Origin: Tahibacter amnicola
GTDB lineage: Bacteria; Pseudomonadota; Gammaproteobacteria; Xanthomonadales; Rhodanobacteraceae
Length of the DNA: 64,000 nucleotides
Direction: 5' to 3'
NCBI RefSeq assembly: GCF_025398735.1
Contig: NZ_CP104694.1
Location: 3,063,001-3,127,000, forward strand
The notes under the pieces were generated by a model. That model saw nothing but the letters and a program-made list of their open reading frames with translations, was not told the origin of the DNA and searched no databases. The position numbers and the translations under genes are program-made. Shown here piece by piece: positions 4,761 through 16,315 of this stretch (position 1 is its first letter; each line of letters begins with the position of its first letter).

Positions 4761-6698
4761 TCAGGCAGCCATGCCGGCGCTGCGTTGGTCGACGACGGAG
4801 ACGATCTGTCGCGCCAGGTAGTCAAAGTAGTGGTCGATGTAGCTCAGCCCGTTCTCACTGTCCTGCAGGAACGGATTCATCAGCGTGTGCCGCAGAATGA
4901 CCAGGCGATCGGCGCCGTCGTGATCGGGCAACAGGGTGGCGGGATCAAGATCCAGTGCAGCGAGTACGCGCTGCATGTCCGTCGCGCCCAGGGCCTCCGG
5001 GCGCAGCGTCGTGACAGAGCCATAGAACTCGCGCGCCTGGACCGCCTTGTCGGGATCGCAGCGCAGGGTTTCGTATAGCCGCGTCAGGAACGCATTCATT
5101 GTCCGGACGTCGCGATTGCCCGCGGGATTGATGGCCAGGCATACGAGATTACTGTCCGGCGCGAACGGAACGCAGACGTGAAAGCGTCCCGCCAGCTGTG
5201 CAGCGAACCGCTCGATCCGCTGCGCGAACGCTTCGGCGGAGTGGATGGTTTCCGCTGTGATGCGACCGAACTGGGTGTAGTCGAGTGGCAGTACGCTATG
5301 GGTGACATAGACGGCGGCGGCAGCGGCACCGGACTTTGAACCCTCCAGGATGTAGCGTCCGAGCTTGCGGAACCGCGCGAAGTAGTCGTTCCCGGTGCCG
5401 CCCGCAAAGACATAATCTGCATCCTCCACCAGCAGCGGCATCGCGCGCTGGTCGCGGCAAATGAAGGCACCGGCGCCATAGGGCAGGTAGCCGAGCTTGT
5501 GCGGATCGACGGTGATCGAATCGCTCCCGCCGAGGGCCGCGATAGCGTCATAGCTGTCCCGGCTCGGGAACGCGGAAAATTCCTGCCGCATGTCGGAGAA
5601 CGCACGTAGCGTGCCCTCTGGTGTTCGGAACAGCGTCGCAAGGTAACCACCCCAGGCAGCGTCGACATGGACGCCAAAGCCAAAACCCGTCGCCGCGTGC
5701 TGGTCCCGGCAGGCCAGGATGCGGTGTACGGGATCGATCGTGCCGAACTCGGTGGTCCCCAGTACGGCAACGGTGAGCAATACGGGGCGTCGTTCGGCGC
5801 GAAGACGGTTGACCAGGTCGTCCAGGGCGTCGGTGTCCATGCGCATGCCACGCTCCGGCACGGCGAGCAGTTGTGCGCGTCCCAGGCCAAGCAACTTGAG
5901 GCCCTTGCTCCAGGAATAGTGCGCGGTCACGGGCGCCAGTACCACCGGCGGCGTGAGCGTGGGATGCCGGGCAAAGAACGCGACCAGTCCCAGTTCCTCG
6001 ATGCGCTCGGATTGCAACCGCCGCACCCAGTCGTGGCGGGCACTGGGTGTCAGGCCCGACAGCCAGTGCTGCCATTGTCCGACCAGCTCGATGCAGTCCT
6101 GGGTGGGTAACGTGAATGCTGCCCAGTCATCATCAGGTAGCGTCAGTCCGGGCGGTGCTGCGGCGCACAGTGCGACGGGAAAGGCTTTCAGGGCCAGTGC
6201 GAGGCGCAGCGCCTGGTAGTTGGCGACGGTACCGCCAGATGTAAGATGACCGAAGGCGCAACCGGGATGATGGGGGTCGTCGTTGAAGCCGAGCATGCGT
6301 GCCAGCTGAAGCCCCGCCTTGATTTCCAGGTCAATCGTCACTGGCGCTGCATCGTCGCTGACATTGTTCGGGTTATAGGGGAGGGCCAGCATCTGCGCGG
6401 CGAGCCCGGGTAGCGCCAGGTCCGATGCCATGTGCCCGAGATACCGAGGACTGTGAAACGGCACCGAGCGTTTGAGCGCTGCCGAGAGACGGTGCAGCTC
6501 GCGCCGCATGCGTGCCTCGAAGGCCTGGTAGTCTGCGCGCTGGGTGGCCGTCGTCGGAATGACCGGCGGGTCTTCCGGATGGAAATTGCGTCGCCAGTAG
6601 ACGTGATCGCGCAGGAACTCGACCGCGAGTTTTTCCAGCAGGACGTCGTTCTCGCCATAGGGGCCGAGAAAACACGGGTACAGAGAAGGGTTGCTCAT
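4761..6698 (-). CDS. PLP-dependent amino-acid decarboxylase (group II, tyrosine/glutamate decarboxylase type)
   Basis: 645 residues, matching the ~620-residue tyrosine-decarboxylase-like group rather than the ~470-residue GadB group. Visible are the early substrate-binding segment with NPNNVSDDAAP near 110, TSGGTVANYQALRLAL near 153, VHVDAAWGGY near 343, and the Schiff-base lysine motif TVDPHKLGYLPYGAG near 397. It would decarboxylate an amino acid in the cytoplasm, a proton-consuming reaction; the substrate cannot be read from the sequence. The gene starts at ATG 6698 and an FNR-like site (6761-6774) lies upstream, so expression at low oxygen is predicted. No antiporter gene is next to it. 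Confidence 0.85.
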   Translation of the reverse strand: MSNPSLYPCFLGPYGENDVLLEKLAVEFLRDHVYWRRNFHPEDPPVIPTTATQRADYQAFEARMRRELHRLSAALKRSVPFHSPRYLGHMASDLALPGLAAQMLALPYNPNNVSDDAAPVTIDLEIKAGLQLARMLGFNDDPHHPGCAFGHLTSGGTVANYQALRLALALKAFPVALCAAAPPGLTLPDDDWAAFTLPTQDCIELVGQWQHWLSGLTPSARHDWVRRLQSERIEELGLVAFFARHPTLTPPVVLAPVTAHYSWSKGLKLLGLGRAQLLAVPERGMRMDTDALDDLVNRLRAERRPVLLTVAVLGTTEFGTIDPVHRILACRDQHAATGFGFGVHVDAAWGGYLATLFRTPEGTLRAFSDMRQEFSAFPSRDSYDAIAALGGSDSITVDPHKLGYLPYGAGAFICRDQRAMPLLVEDADYVFAGGTGNDYFARFRKLGRYILEGSKSGAAAAAVYVTHSVLPLDYTQFGRITAETIHSAEAFAQRIERFAAQLAGRFHVCVPFAPDSNLVCLAINPAGNRDVRTMNAFLTRLYETLRCDPDKAVQAREFYGSVTTLRPEALGATDMQRVLAALDLDPATLLPDHDGADRLVILRHTLMNPFLQDSENGLSYIDHYFDYLARQIVSVVDQRSAGMAA

Positions 6699-6725: not shown

Positions 6726-6774
6726 CGCTGACAGTGTCGAAAAGCCTGCCGGCCAGTGCCTTGATCTGGATCAG
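6726..6774 (-). promoter_or_regulatory. FNR/ANR-like site for the decarboxylase gene
   Basis: TTGAT-CTGG-ATCAG at 6761-6774 (one mismatch). Read leftward, a class II start would be near 6726, with GACACT at 6738-6733 in the -10 position. The same 14-base sequence occurs at 16380-16393. Confidence 0.55.
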
Positions 6775-6864: not shown

Positions 6865-7125
6865 ATGCCACAGTTCGAACTGGATCTGCGCGCCAGTCGC
6901 GATACTGCGCAGCAGAATGCCCAGCGTGTGATTGAAACGGCCGCGACCCTGGGCAAAGGCCAATCGATGGTGGCCCAGCTGTCCCAGGTGCCCTCCACGC
7001 TGCTGGATCTGCTGGAGGAACTGGGTTTTCGCTATGACCTCAATGTGCGCGGTGCAGAAGACGTCGGTGTCCTCATTACGCGCCGGTCCGGTGAGTGCTG
7101 TGGTTGCTGTGGTGGCGGCGATTGA
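6865..7125 (+). CDS. Small DUF2249/TusA-like protein with Cys-rich tail
   Basis: 86 residues with ATG after GGAAGCGCCCC. The layout ELDLR at the N-terminus, GQSMVAQLSQVPSTLLDLL in the middle, EELGFRYDL and GVLITRR follows the DUF2249/TusA-like fold by eye. It ends in ECCGCCGGGD, four cysteines in two CC pairs, which look able to bind a metal or cluster. Its stop overlaps the ATG of the next DUF2249 gene by one base (TGATG), so they are coupled. It is first in the operon driven by the TTGAC-type site at 6795. Function unknown; DUF2249 genes often accompany NO and nitrate respiration genes. Confidence 0.7.
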   Translation: MPQFELDLRASRDTAQQNAQRVIETAATLGKGQSMVAQLSQVPSTLLDLLEELGFRYDLNVRGAEDVGVLITRRSGECCGCCGGGD

Positions 7126-7388
7126 TGGGCGATGACATGCCCCTTGTCGACGGCGATACGTTACGCCGGCTGGACCTGCGTGACCTGGCGCCGCCGGAGC
7201 CGATGGTCCGTGCCCTCGATGCGGCGATGCAGTTGCGGCCGGGTGAATCGGTTCACGTGCTCACGCCGCTCTACCCACATCCCTTGCTCGAAGCGCTCGG
7301 TCAGCTTCCGGTGAGCATTGACGTGGCCATGCTGCCGGCGGGCGGGGTCTGCGTGATGATTGCCTGCGATGGCGCGGATCGCGATTGA
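7125..7388 (+). CDS. DUF2249 domain protein
   Basis: 87 residues starting MGDDMPLVDGD; the DUF2249 core LDLRDLAPPEPMVRALDAA then GESVHVLTPLYPHPLLEAL is clear. The start is chosen because its A is the last base of the preceding stop. The 3' end overlaps the next gene by about 20 bases. DUF2249 proteins are small TusA-like proteins of unknown biochemical role that recur in denitrification clusters; here it lies between a similar protein and an NnrS-like membrane protein. Confidence 0.8.
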   Translation: MGDDMPLVDGDTLRRLDLRDLAPPEPMVRALDAAMQLRPGESVHVLTPLYPHPLLEALGQLPVSIDVAMLPAGGVCVMIACDGADRD

Positions 7389-8625
7389 AACGGCGCCGCC
7401 GGCTTCGGTGCCACTGCGTTTTCTGGCGAGCGCGCCTGCCTGGGGCATGGTGGCTGGTGCCCTGCTCGTGTTCGCGCCCGACGCGGCATTGGCGTCGCGT
7501 TGGCACCCGGCGACGCTGGCGATAACGCATGCTGTCACGCTGGGCGTGCTGGGAAACGCCATGTTCGGCAGCTTGCTGCAGTTTCTGCCGGCGGCTGCCG
7601 GCGTGCGGCTCTGCGGAGGACGATGGATGGCGGCGGGGGTACATGTGCTGCTCAACAGCGGTGCCGTGCTGCTCGTCTGGGGTCTGCAGGAGTTCTCGGC
7701 GGCGCGGCTGCAATGGGGAGCTTTGGCGCTGATGGCGGCGTTTGCCGGCTTGGCCAGCATGACCTTGCCCGGCTTGCTGGGCGCGCGGGCAGCGCGGCTG
7801 CTGCGGACCGGGCTTGCGCTTTCCGTCGTTGGCGGCGTGACGACGGCGCTGCTGGGCTGTGCGCTGGTGTCGATCGTGACTGGTTGGCTGTCATGGCCGC
7901 TGGTCGAAACGCTCGACCTGCATGTGACGTGGGGCATTGCCGTCTGGATAGGAGTGCTCCTGGTCACGGTCGGAAGGGTCGTGCTACCCATGTTCCTCGG
8001 CGTGGCTGCCTACTCCGACTGCCGTCAGCGCGTGGTCCTCGGCAGTCTCGTCGGTGCGGCGGTGCTGGTGACAGTGGGTACTGCACTGGCATACGGACAG
8101 TGGCCGTTGCGCCAGTTCATTGGTGCGCTCGGTGCGTGCATCGCCGCGAGCGCGTGCGTTTGGGTCGTGGCGACGGCGCGCGGCCGAAATCCGGGCTTGC
8201 GCGCCTACTGGCTGGCGGGACTGGTGGGAATCCTGGCAGCAGGACTGATGGCCAGCGTCGCTGGCGATGACGGCATGGCTGCGGGGACCCTGCTTGTGGT
8301 GTGGGCGCTGCCGACCATTGTCGTCGGTACACTGCTGGAGATCGCGACATTTGTCACATGGATCGTGTTGCAGCGATCCAGTGCACGCGGTACGCCGCTG
8401 CCCACGCTGCAGCGGTTGCTGCCGGAGCGCCAGAAATTCCTTGGCCTCGGATTGCAATGTGCGTCAGGCGTCCTGTTGCTTCTGGCTGTCCTGCAGCCGA
8501 CGCCAGCGCACCTGGATGCTGCAGGTTGGAGTTTGCTGGGAAGCTACGCGTGCTTTGCCGGAATGCTGCTCGGACTGCACCGGCAGGCCGGGGCGTTTGT
8601 CAGGCTGCAGGGGCGGCATGCATGA
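7369..8625 (+). CDS. NnrS-like polytopic membrane protein
   Basis: About 418 residues from ATG 7369, with roughly twelve hydrophobic segments. Histidines at membrane edges (ITHAVTLGVLGNAMFGSLLQ near 50, LDLHVTWGIAVWIG near 185) and the general pattern recall NnrS and other haem-copper-oxidase-subunit-I-like proteins. NnrS is linked to nitric-oxide tolerance in denitrifiers. The assignment is by pattern and context only. It overlaps the DUF2249 gene and its stop overlaps the ATG of the chorismate mutase-UbiT gene (ATGA at 8622). Confidence 0.6.
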   Translation: MARIAIETAPPASVPLRFLASAPAWGMVAGALLVFAPDAALASRWHPATLAITHAVTLGVLGNAMFGSLLQFLPAAAGVRLCGGRWMAAGVHVLLNSGAVLLVWGLQEFSAARLQWGALALMAAFAGLASMTLPGLLGARAARLLRTGLALSVVGGVTTALLGCALVSIVTGWLSWPLVETLDLHVTWGIAVWIGVLLVTVGRVVLPMFLGVAAYSDCRQRVVLGSLVGAAVLVTVGTALAYGQWPLRQFIGALGACIAASACVWVVATARGRNPGLRAYWLAGLVGILAAGLMASVAGDDGMAAGTLLVVWALPTIVVGTLLEIATFVTWIVLQRSSARGTPLPTLQRLLPERQKFLGLGLQCASGVLLLLAVLQPTPAHLDAAGWSLLGSYACFAGMLLGLHRQAGAFVRLQGRHA

Positions 8626-9527
8626 CTGCAGCCGCGCAACTGGCAGCGCTGCGGGGCCTGATTACCGGCATTGATGATGGCCTGATCATTCTGATGGGGG
8701 TGCGCTGCCGTGTAGTGGCGGCGGTCGCGGCCCTGAAGCAGCGCGAAGGCTGGGCGGTGCGAGACCCGCTTCGCGAACGGCGTGTCCTGCGCCGGGCCTT
8801 GCGCCTGGGCAAGGCCTGCGGAGTTCCTGCGCTCCAGGCCGGACGCCATTCGCGCATGCTGATGCGCGCGGCGTGTCGTCAACAGCGGCGGACGCAGGCA
8901 GCGTGCGCCGTTTCTCCAAACCGGATTGAGAAGGCACGGGACACCATGATTTCCAGACTCCCTTTTCGTTCGCTGGCTACTGATCTTCTGGGACTGCTAC
9001 CGCCGCCAAAGCGGTTGGCGCCGGTGTTGGCAGCGATTCCTTCGCACTGGCGCGCGCAATGGCTGGAGCGGGCCGTTGGTCAGATCGTCGGCGGTGGCGA
9101 TGACGAATGGGCGTTCCTGCAGGGGCGTCGCATTGGCATTGAGATCACTGATCTGAACCTGCGTTGGGTCATCGCCTACGGTGAATGCCAGGCCCGCGTG
9201 GTGGACGCGCCGGCGGATGCCAGCGTCCATGCGACGGCGGTCGACCTGCTGCTGCTGGCCAGCCGTCTGGAAGATGCAGACACGCTATTTTTCCAGCGCC
9301 GCTTACGCCTGACCGGTGACATCGAACTGGGACTGACCTTGCGCAACCGGCTCGACAGCCTTCCGTGGGAATCCATCCCGCTGGCGATCCGCATCCTGCT
9401 CAACCGTGGTGCGCGCGCGGCTCGCAGGGCGCGCGATTCGCACCACAAGTTGCGGCATCTGCGTCTCTGTGTCGCTACGGAAATTGCAGCGAAATCGATA
9501 CGGCAGCGAAGGGCGGACGAGCCTTGA
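8622..9527 (+). CDS. ubiT: AroQ chorismate mutase domain fused to UbiT (SCP2) anaerobic ubiquinone factor
   Basis: 301 residues in one uninterrupted frame. Residues 1-95 are an AroQ-class chorismate mutase: R11, R28, K39, D48, R51, E52 and Q88 fall at the same numbers as the E. coli active-site residues, with A in place of S84. From M109 the sequence matches UbiT/YhbT: LEDADTLFFQRRLRLTGDIE and LGLTLRNRLDSL are the SCP2-domain hallmarks. UbiT is the lipid-binding accessory factor of oxygen-independent ubiquinone synthesis, working with UbiU and UbiV (encoded at 11342-13234). An internal ATG at 8946 with GAGAAGG upstream could also yield UbiT alone. The start overlaps the previous stop as ATGA. 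Confidence 0.85.
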   Translation: MTAAAQLAALRGLITGIDDGLIILMGVRCRVVAAVAALKQREGWAVRDPLRERRVLRRALRLGKACGVPALQAGRHSRMLMRAACRQQRRTQAACAVSPNRIEKARDTMISRLPFRSLATDLLGLLPPPKRLAPVLAAIPSHWRAQWLERAVGQIVGGGDDEWAFLQGRRIGIEITDLNLRWVIAYGECQARVVDAPADASVHATAVDLLLLASRLEDADTLFFQRRLRLTGDIELGLTLRNRLDSLPWESIPLAIRILLNRGARAARRARDSHHKLRHLRLCVATEIAAKSIRQRRADEP

Positions 9528-9572
9528 CCTGAGTCAAGGCGGGTGCGGGCCACGGGACCGCAGACTCGCGGG
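9524..9572 (+). promoter_or_regulatory. TTGAC-type FNR-family site and promoter of fabA-fabB
   Basis: TTGAC-CTGA-GTCAA at 9524-9537, perfect arms, overlaps the ubiT stop codon. CAGACT at 9561-9566 is near the expected class II -10 position for a start around 9572, before the fabA ATG at 9597. Confidence 0.55.
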
Positions 9573-9596
9573 CATCCTGTTTGCCGGACACATCCG

Positions 9597-10112
9597 ATGA
9601 GCCGACCGCTTTCGCTGGACCACCAAGAACTGATCCGTTGTGCCCATGGCGGCCTTTTCGGCCCTGGGAATGCCCGGTTGCCGGCGCCGCCGATGCTCAT
9701 GTTCGACCGGATCACGCACATCGATGAGTTCGGCGGTACCCATGGCAAGGGTGTGCTGCAGGCAGAACTCGATGTGCGCCCGGACCTGTGGTTCTTCGAC
9801 TGCCACTTCGACGGCGACCCGGTCATGCCCGGGTGCCTGGGTCTGGATGCGATGTGGCAGCTGGCCGGCTTCTTCCTTCCCTGGCTCGGGGAACCGGGAC
9901 GCGGGCGGGCACTCGGCGTTGGACAGGTGAAATTTGCCGGGCAGGTGCTGCCGTCCGCACGCCTGGTGCGCTATCGCATCGATGTGCGCCGTGTTCTGCG
10001 CGGAAAGCTGCCAATGGTGATCGCCCACGGTGTCACGTCCGTGGATGGTCGCGACATCTACGTGGCCGAAGGCCTGCGGGTTGGCCTGTTCCGTTCCACG
10101 GAGGGCTTTTGA
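9597..10112 (+). CDS. fabA: 3-hydroxydecanoyl-ACP dehydratase/isomerase FabA
   Basis: 171 residues, the same size as E. coli FabA. The active-site His70 ([14 protein letters not shown]) and Asp84 (CLGLDAMWQ) fall at exactly the E. coli positions. The enzyme dehydrates 3-hydroxydecanoyl-ACP and isomerises it to the cis-3-decenoyl form, the oxygen-independent entry to unsaturated fatty acids. The start at 9597 (MSRPLSL) is preferred over an open upstream extension lacking family similarity. fabB follows after one base. The upstream TTGAC-type site predicts anaerobic induction. Confidence 0.96.
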
Positions 10113-10113
10113 T

Positions 10114-11322
10114 ATGCGTCGCGTCGTGGTGACGGGATTCGGGATTGTGTCGTGCCTGGGAAACACGGCCGACGCCGTCGTGCGCTGCCTGCGCGACGGT
10201 ATCAGCGGAATTCGCGCGGTCCCCGAGTACGCGGAGCGTGGCCTGCGCAGTTGCGTGGCGGGAATTCCGCAGATCGACCTGGAGGCGGCGGTAGATCGAA
10301 AACGTCGCCGCTTCATGGGTGATGCGGCAGCCTACGCCTATGTGGCCATGCGCGACGCCGTCGCTGATGCGGGCCTGTGCCTGGAGGCGCTGCGCAATCC
10401 GCGCATTGGCGTGATCGCAGGATCAGGTGGTGGCTCGGCGCAGAACCAGATCGAGACTGGCGATACGCTGCGCCAGAAGGGAATACGGCGCGTGGGCCCC
10501 TATATGGTTCCGCGCACAATGTGCTCGACCGTGTCGGCGACGCTGGCGACCGCATTCGGGATCCTGGGCCTGAGCTATTCCATCGCGGCCGCCTGCGCCA
10601 CGTCGGCACATTGCATTGGCGCTGCGGCCGACCTCATTCGCAGCGGTGCACAGGATGTCGTGTTTGCCGGCGGCGCCGAGGAGCTGCATTGGGGCATGAC
10701 CGCGCAGTTCGACGCGATGGGGGCGCTGTCGAGCGCCTACAATGCGGATCCCACGCTTTCATCCCGCCCCTATGACGCGCAGCGCGACGGTTTTGTCATC
10801 GCCGGTGGCGGCGGCATGCTGGTACTGGAAGACTACGAGCACGCGCTGGCGCGGGGCGCGCCGATTCGCGCCGAGCTCGTCGGGTATGGCGTTGCTTCGG
10901 ACGGCGGCGATATGGTGGCCCCCTCGGGCGAAGGTGCGAGGCGATGCATGCGGATGGCATTGCGCGATCTCACGGTTCCGGTCGACTACGTCAATACGCA
11001 CGGCACTGCAACACCGCTGGGCGATATCGTGGAACTTGCGGCGCTGCGCGACGTGTTTGGCGCCGCGGTTCCGCCGCTGTCGTCGACGAAGGCGCTGAGC
11101 GGTCACTCGCTCGGTGCGGCCGGCGTGCATGAGGCCATCTACGGCCTGCTGATGCTGGAACGGGGATTTGTAGCGGGGTCGGCGAACATCGATGCGCTGG
11201 ATCCAAAAGCAGCGGGATTTCCCATCCTGCGCCAGTCGCGGGAATTGCCGGTCAAGACCGTGCTGTCCAACAGCTTTGGTTTTGGCGGTACCAATGCCAG
11301 CCTGGTGTTTTCGCGCGTCTGA
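10114..11322 (+). CDS. fabB: 3-oxoacyl-ACP synthase I FabB
   Basis: 402 residues. The nucleophile Cys161 lies in [11 protein letters not shown], and the two catalytic histidines in [12 protein letters not shown] and [11 protein letters not shown]; the tail [15 protein letters not shown] is standard for KAS I/II. FabB elongates the cis-unsaturated intermediate made by FabA. The ATG begins one base after the fabA stop, so they form a two-gene operon. Whether this is the only fabAB pair of the genome or a second anaerobic copy cannot be told from the window. It converges with ubiV 19 bases downstream. Confidence 0.95.
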
Positions 11323-11341: not shown

Positions 11342-12226
11342 TCAGGGCTGCCGGGGCGGAACGCCCGGCATACCCGGCTCCCCGTGCCAGTAGCCATTGC
11401 GCACGCCGATCGGCGGCAGTGCGCGGGATTCCCGGCGGGCCAGATCAAAATGCGACACGATAGCGGCCATGCCTTCCGCCTGGGGTGAAAGACGCAGCAC
11501 GTCGACCCCGAGCGAGCGCAGATCCGGGACCTCCGGTGACATGTCGACGACGGCCTCGCTCTGGATCTGAATGCCATTGACGCGCAGGAAGGGCCGGCCA
11601 TCGCGCGTGGCCAGCGCAAGACCGTCCGGATGTTCGATACAGCGGAATCCGCAGTGATCCTTTGCGATATCAAATGCCCGGGCGGTGAAACAGCGCGCAG
11701 ACCAGGCCAGGGAGAGACGCCCGTGTGCGAATACTTCCAGCGACGGCGGTTCCTCGCCGTCGCTCCTGATCGCCGTGTGGATGGCGGCGACAAGGTCGCG
11801 ACTGTGCTCGGTTCCCGCCACCCACCGCCGCATGCCGTCATCGACCAGGCGGCGCAGAGTGACGTGATTGTAGATGTTCAGACTGGGGCCGCCGACGAAC
11901 GGGATGCCCCGCTCACGGCAGATCTGGACCGCAGTGACGTCATTGGCTTCGATCCAGCAGTGCCCGTTCTCAGCCAGGCGCCGCACGACAGCGACTTCTG
12001 ACTCCGCTTCGATCAGGGCGAGGGTCGACATAACGACTTCCTTTCCGCGATCCGCCAGGTCATGGGCCAGGTCGATCCAGTCCCGCGTGCGCAGTTCGCG
12101 CCGCTTGCTGCACACCGTTTCCCCCAGGTAGAGGATATCGACCGGCCACTCGGCGGCTTCGCGATAGAACGCCACCGTCCGTTCGCGTGGCCAGAAATAG
12201 GGCATAGGTGCGATGCTCAACTTCAC
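11342..12226 (-). CDS. ubiV: UbiV, U32-family Fe-S protein of anaerobic ubiquinone synthesis
   Basis: 294 residues beginning with GTG after GGAGGCCTCC. The four cluster-ligand cysteines are visible as C39 (LGETVCSKR), C179 (SARCF), C192 and C196 (DHCGFRC), matching the spacing of E. coli UbiV. With UbiU it forms the heterodimer that hydroxylates ubiquinone precursors without O2, using prephenate as oxygen donor in current models. It follows ubiU by 9 bases in the same leftward operon. IYNHVTLRRL and the GRLSLAWSARC segment are family hallmarks. Confidence 0.93.
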   Translation of the reverse strand: MKLSIAPMPYFWPRERTVAFYREAAEWPVDILYLGETVCSKRRELRTRDWIDLAHDLADRGKEVVMSTLALIEAESEVAVVRRLAENGHCWIEANDVTAVQICRERGIPFVGGPSLNIYNHVTLRRLVDDGMRRWVAGTEHSRDLVAAIHTAIRSDGEEPPSLEVFAHGRLSLAWSARCFTARAFDIAKDHCGFRCIEHPDGLALATRDGRPFLRVNGIQIQSEAVVDMSPEVPDLRSLGVDVLRLSPQAEGMAAIVSHFDLARRESRALPPIGVRNGYWHGEPGMPGVPPRQP

Positions 12227-12235
12227 GGAGGCCTC

Positions 12236-13234
12236 CTACTGCCAGTGGCGATGGTACGGTCCGAGAGTCGTCTGATGACCCTCGGCATGACTGGCCAAGG
12301 TAGATTGCCAGCGGGACTGCGGCTTCCAGTCATGGGGCGAATCGGCGTAGCGATCGATGGCATCGCGCCAGGTTCGGGTGACAGCCGTGACGTAGGCGGC
12401 GCCGCGCTGCCGTCCCTCGATCTTCAGCGCCTGAACGCCGCAGGAGTGCAAGCGTGGCAGCAGTTCGAGCGTGTTGAGACTGGTCGGTTCCTCCAGGGCG
12501 TGGAAGATGTTCTGGCGCACCTCGTAACGGCCCTTGCACACGGTGGGATAGCCTGCAGCCTCGTCGGGCGCGAACCGGTCGATCAGCACGTCATTGAGCA
12601 GCACCGTACGCGTACCGTCCGTCGATTCCTCCCAGCGCACGAAGCGGGCCGGGGAGCAGACGCCGTGCCGGTTCGGTGATGCGGCTGTTACGTAACTTGA
12701 AAGCTGGCAGCGCCCCTCGACCATGATGCACAGGCTGCCGAAGGCAAATACTTCCACGGCGACGGGACTTGTACTGCACAGCCGTTCCACCTGCTGGATC
12801 GACAGGACGCGCGGCAGAACTGCACGGGATATGCCGAACTGCTCCGTGTAGTAGCGCAGTGCCGCTGCGGTCGTCGCGGAGCCCTGTACCGAGAGGTGGC
12901 GCGCGAGTGATGGATACGAACGCGCAGCGTAATCGAGCACGGCCATGTCGGCCGCAATGATGGCGTCACAGCCGCTTTCCGCCGCTGTCGCGACGGCCTG
13001 GTGCCACTGGTGGAGACGCTGGCTGTCCGGGTAGGTGTTGAGCGCGAGATAGAGCTGGCGTCCTCGCGCGTGGGCGTAACGCGCGCCCTCGGCAAGTGTG
13101 TTCGCGTCGAAGTTCAGGCCAGGAAACGCGCGCGCGTTGGTCTGGTCGCGCAATCCGGCGTAAACCGCATCGGCGCCGGCGTCGATCGCGCACGTGAGCG
13201 CGGGCAGGTTTCCGGCGGGGCAGACCAGCTGCAT
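12236..13234 (-). CDS. ubiU: UbiU, U32-family Fe-S protein of anaerobic ubiquinone synthesis
   Basis: 332 residues. The start ATG 13234 (MQLVCPAGNLPAL) aligns with E. coli UbiU; the open frame upstream has no similarity. Cluster cysteines C169 and C176 (GSLCIMVEGRC), C193 (HGVCSPARF) and C233 (YPTVCKGRY) match E. coli within one residue. The SVQGSATTAAALRYY and EEPTSLNTLELLP blocks are strongly conserved. It acts with UbiV in oxygen-independent ring hydroxylation. An FNR-family site at 13294-13307 lies 60 bases upstream. Confidence 0.95.
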   Translation of the reverse strand: MQLVCPAGNLPALTCAIDAGADAVYAGLRDQTNARAFPGLNFDANTLAEGARYAHARGRQLYLALNTYPDSQRLHQWHQAVATAAESGCDAIIAADMAVLDYAARSYPSLARHLSVQGSATTAAALRYYTEQFGISRAVLPRVLSIQQVERLCSTSPVAVEVFAFGSLCIMVEGRCQLSSYVTAASPNRHGVCSPARFVRWEESTDGTRTVLLNDVLIDRFAPDEAAGYPTVCKGRYEVRQNIFHALEEPTSLNTLELLPRLHSCGVQALKIEGRQRGAAYVTAVTRTWRDAIDRYADSPHDWKPQSRWQSTLASHAEGHQTTLGPYHRHWQ

Positions 13235-13293
13235 GACATTCCCTGGTTGACGAAGCAGACACGCATGCTGGCGTAGCGCCGGTGACAGTGTCC

Positions 13294-13307
13294 TTGACAT
13301 GTGTCAG
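13294..13307 (-). promoter_or_regulatory. TTGAC-type FNR-family site upstream of ubiU
   Basis: TTGAC-ATGT-GTCAG, one mismatch from a perfect dyad. Class II spacing leftward would put the start near 13259 with CAGCAT (13270-13265) as a weak -10. It lies 22 bases centre to centre from the site serving the opposite strand. Confidence 0.5.
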
Positions 13308-13315
13308 GCGGCTTT

Positions 13316-13364
13316 GTGATCGCGATCAAGCGTCCGCCGTGGACGGTCCGCATAGTGAGCCATT
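13316..13364 (+). promoter_or_regulatory. FNR/ANR-like site and promoter of the small Cys-rich protein gene
   Basis: GTGAT-CGCG-ATCAA at 13316-13329. CATAGT at 13351-13356 is the -10-like hexamer at class II distance, predicting a start near 13364, just before the ATG at 13375. Confidence 0.5.
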
Positions 13365-13374
13365 CTGCAAGCGG

Positions 13375-13692
13375 ATGAAGAAGAGCGTGAAGACCGACAA
13401 GGCAGTGATCCCCGTCTGGCAATGCATTGGCTGCGGTCGCATCGAATTGCCACAGATCTGCATCGGCGTGTGCCGCGACGAGAAGCGCTATCTCGTCAGC
13501 GCGCACGCACTGGATGCGAGTGTGGCGGAGAACGAGCGACTGCGCCGCGTTCTGGGGGAGGTGTGCTCGCGACTGCAGCGCTTTGCGCACGCGCGCCCGC
13601 GCGAGAACCGCTGGGAAGCGGCATTTCTCTCGCTCCAGGCCGAGGTTGCCGCTTTGATCGACCAGGTGGAGTCGGCGCGTGCGGAACCCTAG
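13375..13692 (+). CDS. Conserved small protein with zinc-ribbon-like Cys motif
   Basis: 105 residues from ATG 13375. The N-terminal half contains [20 protein letters not shown]-like sequence: the cysteines in WQCIGCG and PQICIGVC form a CxxC...CxxxC knuckle likely to bind metal. The rest is helical with a predicted coiled segment ([19 protein letters not shown]). Proteins with this WQCIGCG motif are found near nitrate-respiration genes, but no function is known to me. Its TAG stop overlaps the TAG of ubiD on the other strand in the four bases CTAG. The FNR-like site at 13316 indicates anaerobic expression. Confidence 0.72.
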
Positions 13693-15164
13693 GCGCGGGC
13701 GTCGACGATATCCCGCCACAGTGCGTCGACACGCCGTTCGATGGCGGCGTCCGGCACGATGGGCTTGCCCCATTCGCGCGTGGTTTCCGCTGGCCATTTG
13801 TTCGTGGCGTCCATGCCGAGCTTGGAGCCCAGGCCCGCCGTGGGACTGGCGAAGTCCAGGTAGTCGATGGGCGTGCGATCGACGAGGACCGTGTCGCGCG
13901 CCGGGTCGACGCGGGTCGAGACGGCCCAGATGACCTGCGACCAGTCGCGCGCGTCGATATCCTCGTCGACCACGATGACGAACTTTGTATACGTGAACTG
14001 GCGCAGGTAGGACCAGATACCCATCATGACGCGCCGGGCGTGACCGGCATACTGCTTGCGGATGGCCACGACCGCGACGCGGTAGGAACAGGCCTCTGGC
14101 GGAAGGAAGAAGTCGACGATTTCCGGAAAGATCTTCTGCAGGATTGGCACGAATACGTCGTTCAGTGCCATCGCCATCACGGCGGGTTCGTCGTGTGGCG
14201 CGCGACCCATGTAGCTGCCGTGGTAGATCGGGTCTTTCCGGCAGTGCATGCGTGTGACCGTGAGGACGGGAAAGGGGGCCTGACTGTTGTAGTAGCCCGT
14301 GTGATCGCCGAAGGGACCTTCCAGCGCGGTATCGCCGGGATGGATGAACCCTTCGAGGACGATTTCGGCGCTGGCGGGGATGTCCAGGCCGGTTAGCGGA
14401 CTGTGCCAGACACGTGTGCGGTCGCCGCGCAGCAATCCGGCGAATTCGTATTCGGAGACAGTATCTGGAACAGGTGCCACGGCAGCCAGCAAGGTTGCAG
14501 GGTCGACACCGATGGCGACGGCGACCGGAAATGGCCGGCCGGGGTGCGTGGATGTCCAGTCGGCAAAATCCAGCGCGCCACCGCGATGCGGCAGCCAGCG
14601 CATGATGACGCGGTTGCGCGCGATCAACTGCTGGCGATAGATCGCCACGTTCTGGCGTTCCTTGCGCGTACCGCGGGTGATCACCAGGCCCAGCGTGATC
14701 AAACGGCCGGCATCGCCGGGCCAGCAATGCTGGATAGGCAGCGTTGAAAGATCGATCGCGTCATATTCGAATGTTTCATCGAGAAAAGCGGCGTCGCGAA
14801 GGCGGCGCGGGGAAACGTGCGCCAACTGTGCCAGGTGTGGCCACTGGTGCAGTGCCTGCCGCACGCTGGCGGGCCAGGTCGGTTCCTTGATTTCGGCGAG
14901 CAACTTTCCCAGCTCACGCAGGCTGGCGACAGGCCGGCCCGCCAAGGCCATCTGGATCCGTTGGCGTGACCCGAAAAGATTGCCCAGTGCGCGAAGGGAG
15001 GAGCCGCGCAGCTGCGTCATCAGCAGCGCCGGGCCGCCGGTCTTTAGCGCGCGGACGCACAACGCGGTCGATTCCAGGTATGGATCCACCTCGGCGGATA
15101 CGTGCGCAAGCTGGTTGTTCCGTTGAAGGTGCACGAGAAAGCCGCGCAGATCGTGGAACGTCAT
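13689..15164 (-). CDS. ubiD: UbiD-family 3-polyprenyl-4-hydroxybenzoate decarboxylase
   Basis: 491 residues from ATG 15164 ([14 protein letters not shown]), close to E. coli UbiD (497). Family blocks are visible: [10 protein letters not shown] and [12 protein letters not shown] near 190, [15 protein letters not shown] near 225, [20 protein letters not shown] near 275 carrying the conserved acidic residues, and the [15 protein letters not shown] tail. UbiD uses prenylated FMN made by UbiX to decarboxylate the ubiquinone precursor. The start codon overlaps the stop of the cysteine-desulfhydrase-like gene (ATGA), placing it in that operon. No ubiX is in the window. Confidence 0.92.
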
Positions 15165-16315
15165 GACAGTGGCGACGGCGCGTTCCAGCTTCCGTCCGCC
15201 AGGCAACGGCGCAGTGCCTGCGTCCAGGGTGTCACGTCGATGCCACGCTGCTGGCGCCATGTGGCGTTGAACAGTGTTTCCTCATAGCGTTCGCCGCGAT
15301 CGCACAACAGGCTGACAATGCTGCCGGTGTGCCCGGCGTTTCGCATGTGCGCGGCCAATGCCAGGCAGGCGGCGAAGTTGGTTCCCGAAGACCCGCCGTA
15401 GCGCCGGCCAAGGAGGTGGCACAGCAGGTCCATTGCGGCCAACGATAACGGGTCTTCCACCTCAACGACGGCATCGACGACATCGAACAGGAAGCCGGGC
15501 TCCACGCGCGGCCGGCCGATCCCTTCAATGACCGTCGGGCAAATCGATGTCGCGGTGTAATCACGCGCAGGCCAGCCGCGGGCGAACGCGCTGCCGATTG
15601 GATCGGCGACGCACAGACGGGTGGGGAGACGCTGATACCGCAGGTAGCGACCGACCGTCGCCGAGGTGCCGCCGGTGCCAGCGCCGCACACGATCCACGC
15701 GGGTTGCGGATGGGGTTCCAGTGCGAGCTGGCCGATGATGGACTCGGCGATGTTGTTGTTGCCCCGCCAGTCCGTCGCGCGCTCGGCAAGGCCGAACTGG
15801 TCCAGGTGGCACGCGCCCCGGGCGGAATGCCACGCCGCGCGGTCATGCACGTCAGCAGGATCATCGACCAGATCGCAGGTGCCGCCCAGGGCCTCGACAT
15901 CGCGGATCTTCGCCGGTGCGGTACAGCGCGGCATCACGGCGATGAACGGCAGATGCAGCAACCGCGCAAACCAGGCCTCCGCAATAGCGGTGCTGCCGGA
16001 CGATGCATCGACGACGGCCTGGCCTTGCCGCAGCCGCCCGTTGCACAGGGCGTAGAGGAACAGCGAGCGGGCGAGCCGGTGCTTGAGACTGCCTGTCGGG
16101 TGGGCTGCCTCGTCCTTGAAGTAGAAATCGATGCCGGGAAATCCGGCAAATTCCAGCTTGTACAGATGGGTATCCGCGGAGCGGGCCGACTCCCTCGCGA
16201 GCGTCGCCAGCGCGGCGTGCACCCAGTCGCGATCATCCAGGCCGTGCTTGCCGATTATCGGTACCGGCGGTGTTATGTGTGCGGCCGGTTTGAGGGACGC
16301 GGAAGCGATCGGCAC
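15161..16315 (-). CDS. PLP-dependent cysteine synthase-family protein (Cds1-like cysteine desulfhydrase)
   Basis: 384 residues from GTG 16315 preceded by GAGGACTCGCC. The PLP lysine is K78 in [30 protein letters not shown] is the asparagine-loop equivalent and [18 protein letters not shown] the phosphate cup. The extended [20 protein letters not shown] block resembles the Cds1-type L-cysteine desulfhydrases, which release sulfide, pyruvate and ammonia, but cysteine synthase activity cannot be ruled out. It is upstream of and overlapping ubiD, an unexplained pairing. An FNR-like site at 16380 lies upstream. Confidence 0.8.

Follow-up and report, generated by a model that had tools for sequence, protein, structure and literature searches.

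A UbiT protein with its own chorismate mutase domain

The 64,000-nucleotide stretch of the Tahibacter amnicola genome analyzed here (NZ_CP104694.1, positions 3,063,001 to 3,127,000; hereafter the window, with positions counted from its first letter) carries a gene in which an AroQ-type chorismate mutase (CM) domain is joined in frame to UbiT. The genes ubiU and ubiV lie 2–4 kb away, and both of their products score above profile cut-offs. The 301-residue fusion frame is open throughout, and its ATG overlaps the stop codon of the upstream NnrS-like gene (ATGA). In a profile scan, residues 10–88 matched the Pfam family CM_2 and residues 137–250 the NCBIfam UbiT equivalog, both above the curated cut-offs (Table 1). 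The fusion that an earlier note had read from the letters of this DNA is thereby confirmed: the protein is a UbiT with its own AroQ-type CM domain. The same note had the SCP2 domain begin at residue 109; this residue is indeed encoded by the internal in-frame ATG at 8946, but the UbiT profile match begins only at residue 137. Against the named NCBIfam chorismate mutase equivalogs, the best score of the fusion was 32.2 bits for a cut-off of 120, and it is a member of none of them.

The alignment with E. coli CM (1ecm_A) is gapless over residues 1–84. The AlphaFold model of the fusion (mean pLDDT 88.6, pTM 0.68, blocks 101–120 at 56–59) is predicted to contain the three-helix fold of E. coli CM (5vht_A; root-mean-square deviation (rmsd) 1.1, TMt 0.91, E 1.9e-3, rank 26) and also resembles UbiJ-SCP2 (6h6p_A; TMt 0.76, E 1.9e-6). 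The linker equivalent of residues 89–126 is 20–58 amino acids long in 87 relatives (median 39). A chance or mis-joined frame is ruled out by the 87 further distinct fused frames recovered from relatives.

E. coli UbiT (YhbT), of the O2-independent ubiquinone pathway, is described as a 174-residue protein that is mostly SCP2. The window protein resembles it in exceeding the UbiT equivalog cut-off and in sharing a locus with ubiU and ubiV, but here a CM domain precedes. Similar to CM-PheA (the P-protein) and CM-TyrA (the T-protein), an N-terminal AroQ domain is joined to a prephenate-pathway protein; unlike in these enzymes, the partner is a lipid-binding accessory factor and not prephenate dehydratase or dehydrogenase. 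The 3-deoxy-D-arabino-heptulosonate 7-phosphate (DAHP) synthases of B. subtilis and L. monocytogenes also carry an N-terminal CM_2 domain, with Ser84 replaced in the B. subtilis protein, and there the domain regulates. By profiles, the partner in the window is SCP2/UbiT, so the fusion falls outside this class of regulatory CM-like domains. The UbiT-UbiU fusion of Zymomonas mobilis likewise belongs to the UbiTUV pathway, but it joins two known members and adds no new activity. No description of a CM-UbiT fusion was found in the open-licence literature, although the primary prephenate paper, which lies outside that search, may mention it. The main text of PMC11707229 mentions neither chorismate mutase nor a fusion, and that of PMC13386864 neither chorismate nor a fusion.

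Conservation of the active site

All seven polar active-site residues are present in the window CM domain (R11, R28, K39, D48, R51, E52, and Q88), with Ala at position 84. The earlier note had placed all seven at their E. coli AroQ numbers. The 1ecm_A alignment bears this out for the first six, and Q88 aligns with the glutamine of PheA and TyrA from the same genome. That only S84 is changed is correct, yet this is a weak point: in PheA of the same genome, position 84 is Cys and position 48 is Arg. Because of this Cys, Ser84 was not taken as defining a CM.

Residues were counted on 88 distinct fused proteins, the window included (68 groups at 80% identity), after exclusion of the eleven unfused rows of the 99-row set. 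R11, R28, K39, R51, and E52 are found in 88/88, Q88 in 87, and D48 in 83, the other five having Asn. The seven positions have a mean conservation of 99%, against 60% for a CM position, and rank 1–4, 6, 7, and 11 of 89 CM positions; random sets of seven positions were never equally conserved (0/100000). The invariant CM columns in 47 diverse fused proteins are R11, D18, R28, K39, R51, and E52. A decayed active site is ruled out by the residue comparison and by this conservation. Position 84 is Ala in 79 proteins, Gly in 8, and Ser in 1.

Prephenate is central to the anaerobic pathway. As the earlier note had assumed, a 2024 review names prephenate as the source of the hydroxyl oxygen when ubiquinone is made anaerobically; it adds that the chemistry remains to be demonstrated and that the mechanism of prephenate use by U32 enzymes is open (PMC11574389). 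UbiUV uses an oxygen donor other than O2, for which prephenate has been proposed (PMC10470549). The U32 protein TrhP is prephenate-dependent, and in a mutant a CM-only pheA was enough to restore its product (PMC6599085). In P. aeruginosa, UbiT binds polyisoprenoid lipids (PMC8854274). The fusion is probably a pathway-dedicated CM that gives prephenate to UbiU and UbiV.

The strongest rival, which we consider improbable, is that the CM domain is a sensor that binds chorismate or prephenate and switches UbiT or UbiUV on with little or no turnover. Indeed, the regulatory CM domains of DAHP synthases keep the polar residues and bind chorismate and prephenate, which counts against a dedicated enzyme, and in the B. 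subtilis domain Ser84 is replaced by Gly and hydrophobic differences are thought to set activity (PMC5526877). The fused family has Ala or Gly at 84 in 87/88 proteins and is mostly unlike E. coli CM at positions 32 (Val in 66), 55 (Val in 78), and 85 (Cys in 63). However, Ile81 is kept in 77/88, and two sets of genes described below fit an enzyme better than a domain meaningful only as part of a fusion, namely, the stand-alone CMs beside ubiT and the stand-alone descendants in genomes G001 and G004. It is very unlikely that the CM fold is a dimerisation or scaffold module for which catalysis is irrelevant. The AroQ site is formed by two subunits (PMC5526877) and UbiJ is described as organising a Ubi complex, both of which would suit such a module, but a scaffold would not hold R11, R28, K39, R51, and E52 unchanged when CM positions are on average 60% conserved.

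Spread and loss of the fusion

A pattern scan of GTDB contigs returned 354 relatives, with a CM match in the locus in 79 of the best 80; the named genera among these include Dyella, Arenimonas, Lysobacter, Rhodanobacter, Thermomonas, Stenotrophomonas, and Pseudoxanthomonas. UbiT exceeds the cut-off in 27 of 99 close relatives and is fused in 17 of these, our genome counted. Larger samples were taken from the order and the class, with the best 8 or 6 candidates scored per genome. In the order sample (299 genomes), 79 genomes have a UbiT match and 42 the fusion, which accounts for 18 of 21 UbiT genomes in the family of Tahibacter, for 19/19, 1/1, and 4/4 in three other families, and for 0/34 in the rest. 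Three of the 42 fused matches run over a TGA (G036, where it lies beyond the C-terminal end by coordinates, G300, and G287). The AroQ-SCP2 fusions that the earlier note had proposed to seek are thus not absent from relatives, and a local oddity of one genome is rejected, although only 1/8 genomes of the genus is fused. The class sample (369 genomes) contained three fusions, all in the same order, and 87 genomes of other orders with an unfused UbiT; the fusion is therefore a lineage trait.

UbiU accompanies the fusion in 42/42 genomes (41 above the cut-off and one as a partial match at a small contig). It was found in 0/20 same-family genomes without any fusion match, these controls being the listed match-less genomes of the family, with 172 further match-less genomes outside the control set. 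In the 6-kb flanks of 59 fully flanked loci, UbiV was detected in 55 and UbiU in 43.

Within the genus, G001 and G004 encode an intact stand-alone CM, with all seven polar residues kept, and, at another place, an unfused UbiT as well as UbiU. G002 has a stand-alone CM with K39R but no UbiU and no UbiT above the cut-off, and the remaining four genomes have CM matches of the TyrA type only. Genome G037 also lacks UbiU and retains only a C-terminal CM remnant, whose match begins at model position 53 and runs over a TGA; a different open reading frame (ORF) occupies its place. In the two cases observed, absence of UbiU goes with an eroding CM, but genomes that retain UbiU can also lose the CM or carry it as a separate gene. 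As a separate observation, the K39R gene of G002, surviving without UbiU, is a possible relic in decay.

Monophyly of the fused UbiTs was rejected on the SCP2 tree (p-AU 0.00019), because the unfused UbiTs of G014, G037, locus L112, and G001/G004 fall among the fused ones. Together with the single CM branch described below, we read this as one gain and several losses of the fusion, although long branches make the SCP2 tree unsure.

The fused genes also carry what may be a trace of their history. An ATG lies 15–21 codons before P127 in 64/88 of them (0.122 per codon vs 0.015 elsewhere), and in the window ATG 8946 is preceded by a Shine-Dalgarno-like GAGAAGG with a duplex energy of -5.6. These features could indicate that a short UbiT is made alongside the full fusion, which may then be the minor form. 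This is highly unlikely: across the family, pairing at this slot is weaker (mean -1.6) than at other internal ATGs (-2.8) or at the first start (-5.3), and an internal start is not supported by Shine-Dalgarno pairing as a family feature. More plausibly, the slot is a remnant of the former ubiT start or, alternatively, a structural Met.

Stand-alone chorismate mutase genes beside ubiT

CM_2 matches up to E 1e-6 were listed for the 87 genomes of other orders with UbiT and their positions compared by eye; here and in the two further UbiT sets below, a CM separated from ubiT by a contig break, or one beyond this threshold, would be missed. A stand-alone CM lies 171–350 bp from the UbiT match in five of the 87, from five families (G599, G353, G461, G493, and G546), against a chance expectation of about 0.05–0.1 by rough arithmetic. 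Only six CM frames in the 87 genomes are shorter than 200 amino acids. Five are those beside ubiT, and the sixth stands ahead of a frame resembling, by eye, prephenate dehydratase. Both ubiU and ubiV are present in all five loci and are the sole neighbours common to all. The five proteins all exceed the CM_2 cut-off (three, when rescanned, at 59.8–67.2 bits) and possibly form a separate subfamily of pathway CMs.

A tree of 41 CM rows, including the window and 10 of the 87 other fused proteins, placed the five in a group of their own (82/73), outside the fused-CM branch. The fused CMs and the stand-alone CMs of the same genus share one branch (92/90), which stands beside the TyrA CMs (92/79). 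Supports are modest and some branches long; the separate group suggests a second origin of the association between CM and ubiT. A CM beside ubiT as a general rule is rejected, with 5/87 in the other orders of the class and 0/70 in a second sample.

Two further observations concern the arrangement of these loci. In G461 (locus L148), the genes ubiT, CM, fabA, and fabB follow one another on one strand, much like CM-ubiT, fabA, and fabB in the window, though the CMs group apart. Locus L146 contains an NnrS-looking ORF, without a tblastn match.

Genes around the fusion

The window region looks like one of nitrate respiration and anaerobic quinone synthesis: beyond the ubiD-family and Cds1-like genes lie moaA, a moeA-like gene, a narK-type transporter gene, narG, and narH. 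A pattern scan detected 4 FNR-like sites with at most one mismatch in the window, vs 0.58 expected. The gene upstream of the fusion is presumably NnrS-like, a name based on likeness.

Table 1 Features of the window and of the loci compared with it, with position and strand in the respective stretch
Feature	Locus	Position	Strand	Evidence or remark
CM-UbiT fusion gene, 301 amino acids	window	8622..9527	+	single open frame; CM_2 and UbiT profiles above cut-off
AroQ-type chorismate mutase domain, residues 1-96	window	8622..8909	+	PF01817, residues 10-88, 42.4 bits vs cut-off 27; predicted model like E. coli CM, rmsd 1.1
Variable linker, about residues 97-126	window	8910..8999	+	internal in-frame ATG 8946 inside
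SCP2 domain of UbiT	window	9000..9524	+	NF047962, residues 137-250, 108.9 bits vs cut-off 46.9; resembles UbiJ-SCP2 structures
ubiV	window	11342..12226	-	NF047965, 349 bits vs 275
ubiU	window	12236..13300	-	NF047963, 522 bits vs 440; profile from residue 23, true start probably near 13234
NnrS-like membrane protein	window	7360..8625	+	no family above cut-off; tblastn match in 34/59 fully flanked relatives
fabA	window	9594..10112	+	TIGR01749, 271.5 bits vs 238
fabB-like ketoacyl synthase	window	10117..11322	+	best PRK07967, 621.5 bits, under cut-off 630
ubiD-family decarboxylase	window	13689..15173	-	TIGR00148, 493 bits vs 245; PRK10922 713.6, below cut-off 788
FNR-like site TTGATNNNNATCAA, 1 mismatch	window	6761..6774	+	between PLP decarboxylase gene (-) and DUF2249/NnrS-like/CM-UbiT run (+)
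FNR-like site before ubiU	window	13316..13329	+	pattern scan
Pyridoxal phosphate (PLP) decarboxylase	window	4761-6698	-	tyrosine-decarboxylase C-terminal domain
Short ORF resembling the DUF2249 gene	window	about 6865-7126	+	by eye
DUF2249 protein	window	7095-7388	+
Cys-bearing ORF, 136 amino acids	window	13282-13689	+	no family above cut-off
Cysteine-desulfhydrase-like PLP gene	window	15161-16315	-	Cds1 profile, 450 bits, cut-off 600
Stand-alone CM gene beside ubiT	L146	9472-9753	+
Stand-alone CM gene beside ubiT	L147	9450-9776	+
Stand-alone CM gene beside ubiT	L149	7109-7495	-
Stand-alone CM frame beside ubiT	L148	9523-9918	-
Stand-alone CM frame beside ubiT	L150	3730-4209	-
ubiT, CM, fabA, fabB	L148 (G461)	7787-10523	-	one strand
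NnrS-looking ORF	L146	3938-5140		no tblastn match
K39R CM	L118 (G002)	7549-9141	-	no UbiU

The fabA and fabB-like genes (9594-11322) separate CM-ubiT from ubiV, and fabA/fabB matches occur in 30/59 fully flanked relatives. The DUF2249 gene and the short ORF similar to it stand ahead of the NnrS-like gene and behind an FNR-like site. Between ubiU and ubiD, the Cys-bearing ORF has matches of 39–45% identity in same-family genomes. The PLP decarboxylase, an aromatic-pathway neighbour, is also found near the ubiUVT loci L149 and L150. The Cds1-like gene adjoins ubiD; that it feeds iron-sulphur assembly is only a guess.

Some of these neighbours bear on whether the CM serves general phenylalanine and tyrosine synthesis or another local process, such as that of the tyrosine-decarboxylase-like gene or FabA/FabB, the fusion then being an operon accident. 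G002, without UbiU, keeps its stand-alone CM between an NnrS-like gene and fabA. Fused loci repeatedly have NnrS-like and FabAB neighbours, and FabA, FabB, and the PLP decarboxylase appear at some of the ubiT-adjacent CM loci. We nevertheless regard a general role as quite unlikely, since ubiU and ubiV are what all five ubiT-adjacent loci have and UbiU is never missing from a fused genome. In addition, the genome has PheA and TyrA with CM domains of their own, and the CM of G002 has lost K39.

Proposed role in anaerobic ubiquinone synthesis

In the pathway we propose, lipid quinone intermediates would sit on the SCP2 half, and the CM half would convert chorismate to prephenate. The UbiU-UbiV hydroxylases would consume this prephenate, taking from it the oxygen to hydroxylate the ring in the absence of O2. 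The tether would raise prephenate at the UbiUV site while PheA and TyrA, with their own CMs, draw prephenate into phenylalanine and tyrosine. R11 of each AroQ site is contributed by the other subunit (PMC5526877), and because of this UbiT would be dimeric if its CM is active. We infer mutase activity, local delivery, competition with PheA and TyrA, and UbiT dimerisation through the CM fold. The primary study of prephenate as oxygen donor reportedly used 18O-shikimate labelling.

Several observations weigh against a CM dedicated to this pathway. E. coli UbiT does without a CM domain, as does UbiT in 34 genomes from four further families of the order. Besides the fusion, the genome encodes three CM domains above the Pfam cut-off that could supply prephenate: CM-PheA, CM-TyrA (with prephenate dehydrogenase), and a separate 221-residue frame, which by eye we read as a secreted AroQ. 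The window CM is on a long branch (1.77) in the CM tree. In G004 the CM is at the NnrS-like/fabA position, with ubiT about 35 kb away on the same contig, and in G001 the two are on different contigs. G014 has UbiU and an unfused UbiT with no such CM domain, and at locus L112 an unfused UbiT stands beside ubiVU with no CM match within 11 kb. An obligatory tether is rejected by the split in G001 and G004 and by the lack of such a CM in G014 and L112. No CM was found beside ubiT in 36 unfused UbiT genomes of the order, nor in the second sample of 70 UbiT genomes (27 of the same class and 43 of other classes, chosen from 185 for family diversity). No CM match at all was obtained in 10/193 of the genomes tested (87 + 70 + 36). 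The five ubiT-adjacent CMs keep R11, R28, K39, R51, and E52, but Q88 is kept in none and D48 in one, and their activity is less certain for this reason. Finally, fabA/fabB or the PLP decarboxylase is also found in 4/5 of these loci (fabA in three, fabB in two, PLP decarboxylase in two).

The link between the CM and UbiUVT, which the earlier note had offered as its own step beyond the sequence, has in part gained ground: it is favoured by the occurrence of the fusion in four families, by the invariance of the active site, by UbiU in every fused genome, and by the CM genes beside ubiT in other orders, and it stays a conditional one. A broader proposal is that CM-UbiT channels chorismate through prephenate to UbiU/UbiV on a quinone-holding scaffold and that the partnership had a separate origin in other families of the Gammaproteobacteria, where the CM is a stand-alone gene next to ubiT; for this combination we consider the chances evenly balanced. 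To our knowledge, a dedicated maker of an organic oxygen donor would be the first such enzyme.

The claim that prephenate acts as an organic oxygen donor is a recent one and unusual for biological hydroxylation, and the fusion of a prephenate-making enzyme to UbiT would provide independent genomic support for this chemistry. The fusion may also serve as a handle for tests, as it would unite the donor source and the lipid scaffold in one protein, and relatives in which the CM domain is lost, split off, or retained would be natural controls. The stand-alone CMs beside ubiT, which would otherwise be filed under amino acid synthesis, are likely members of the pathway.

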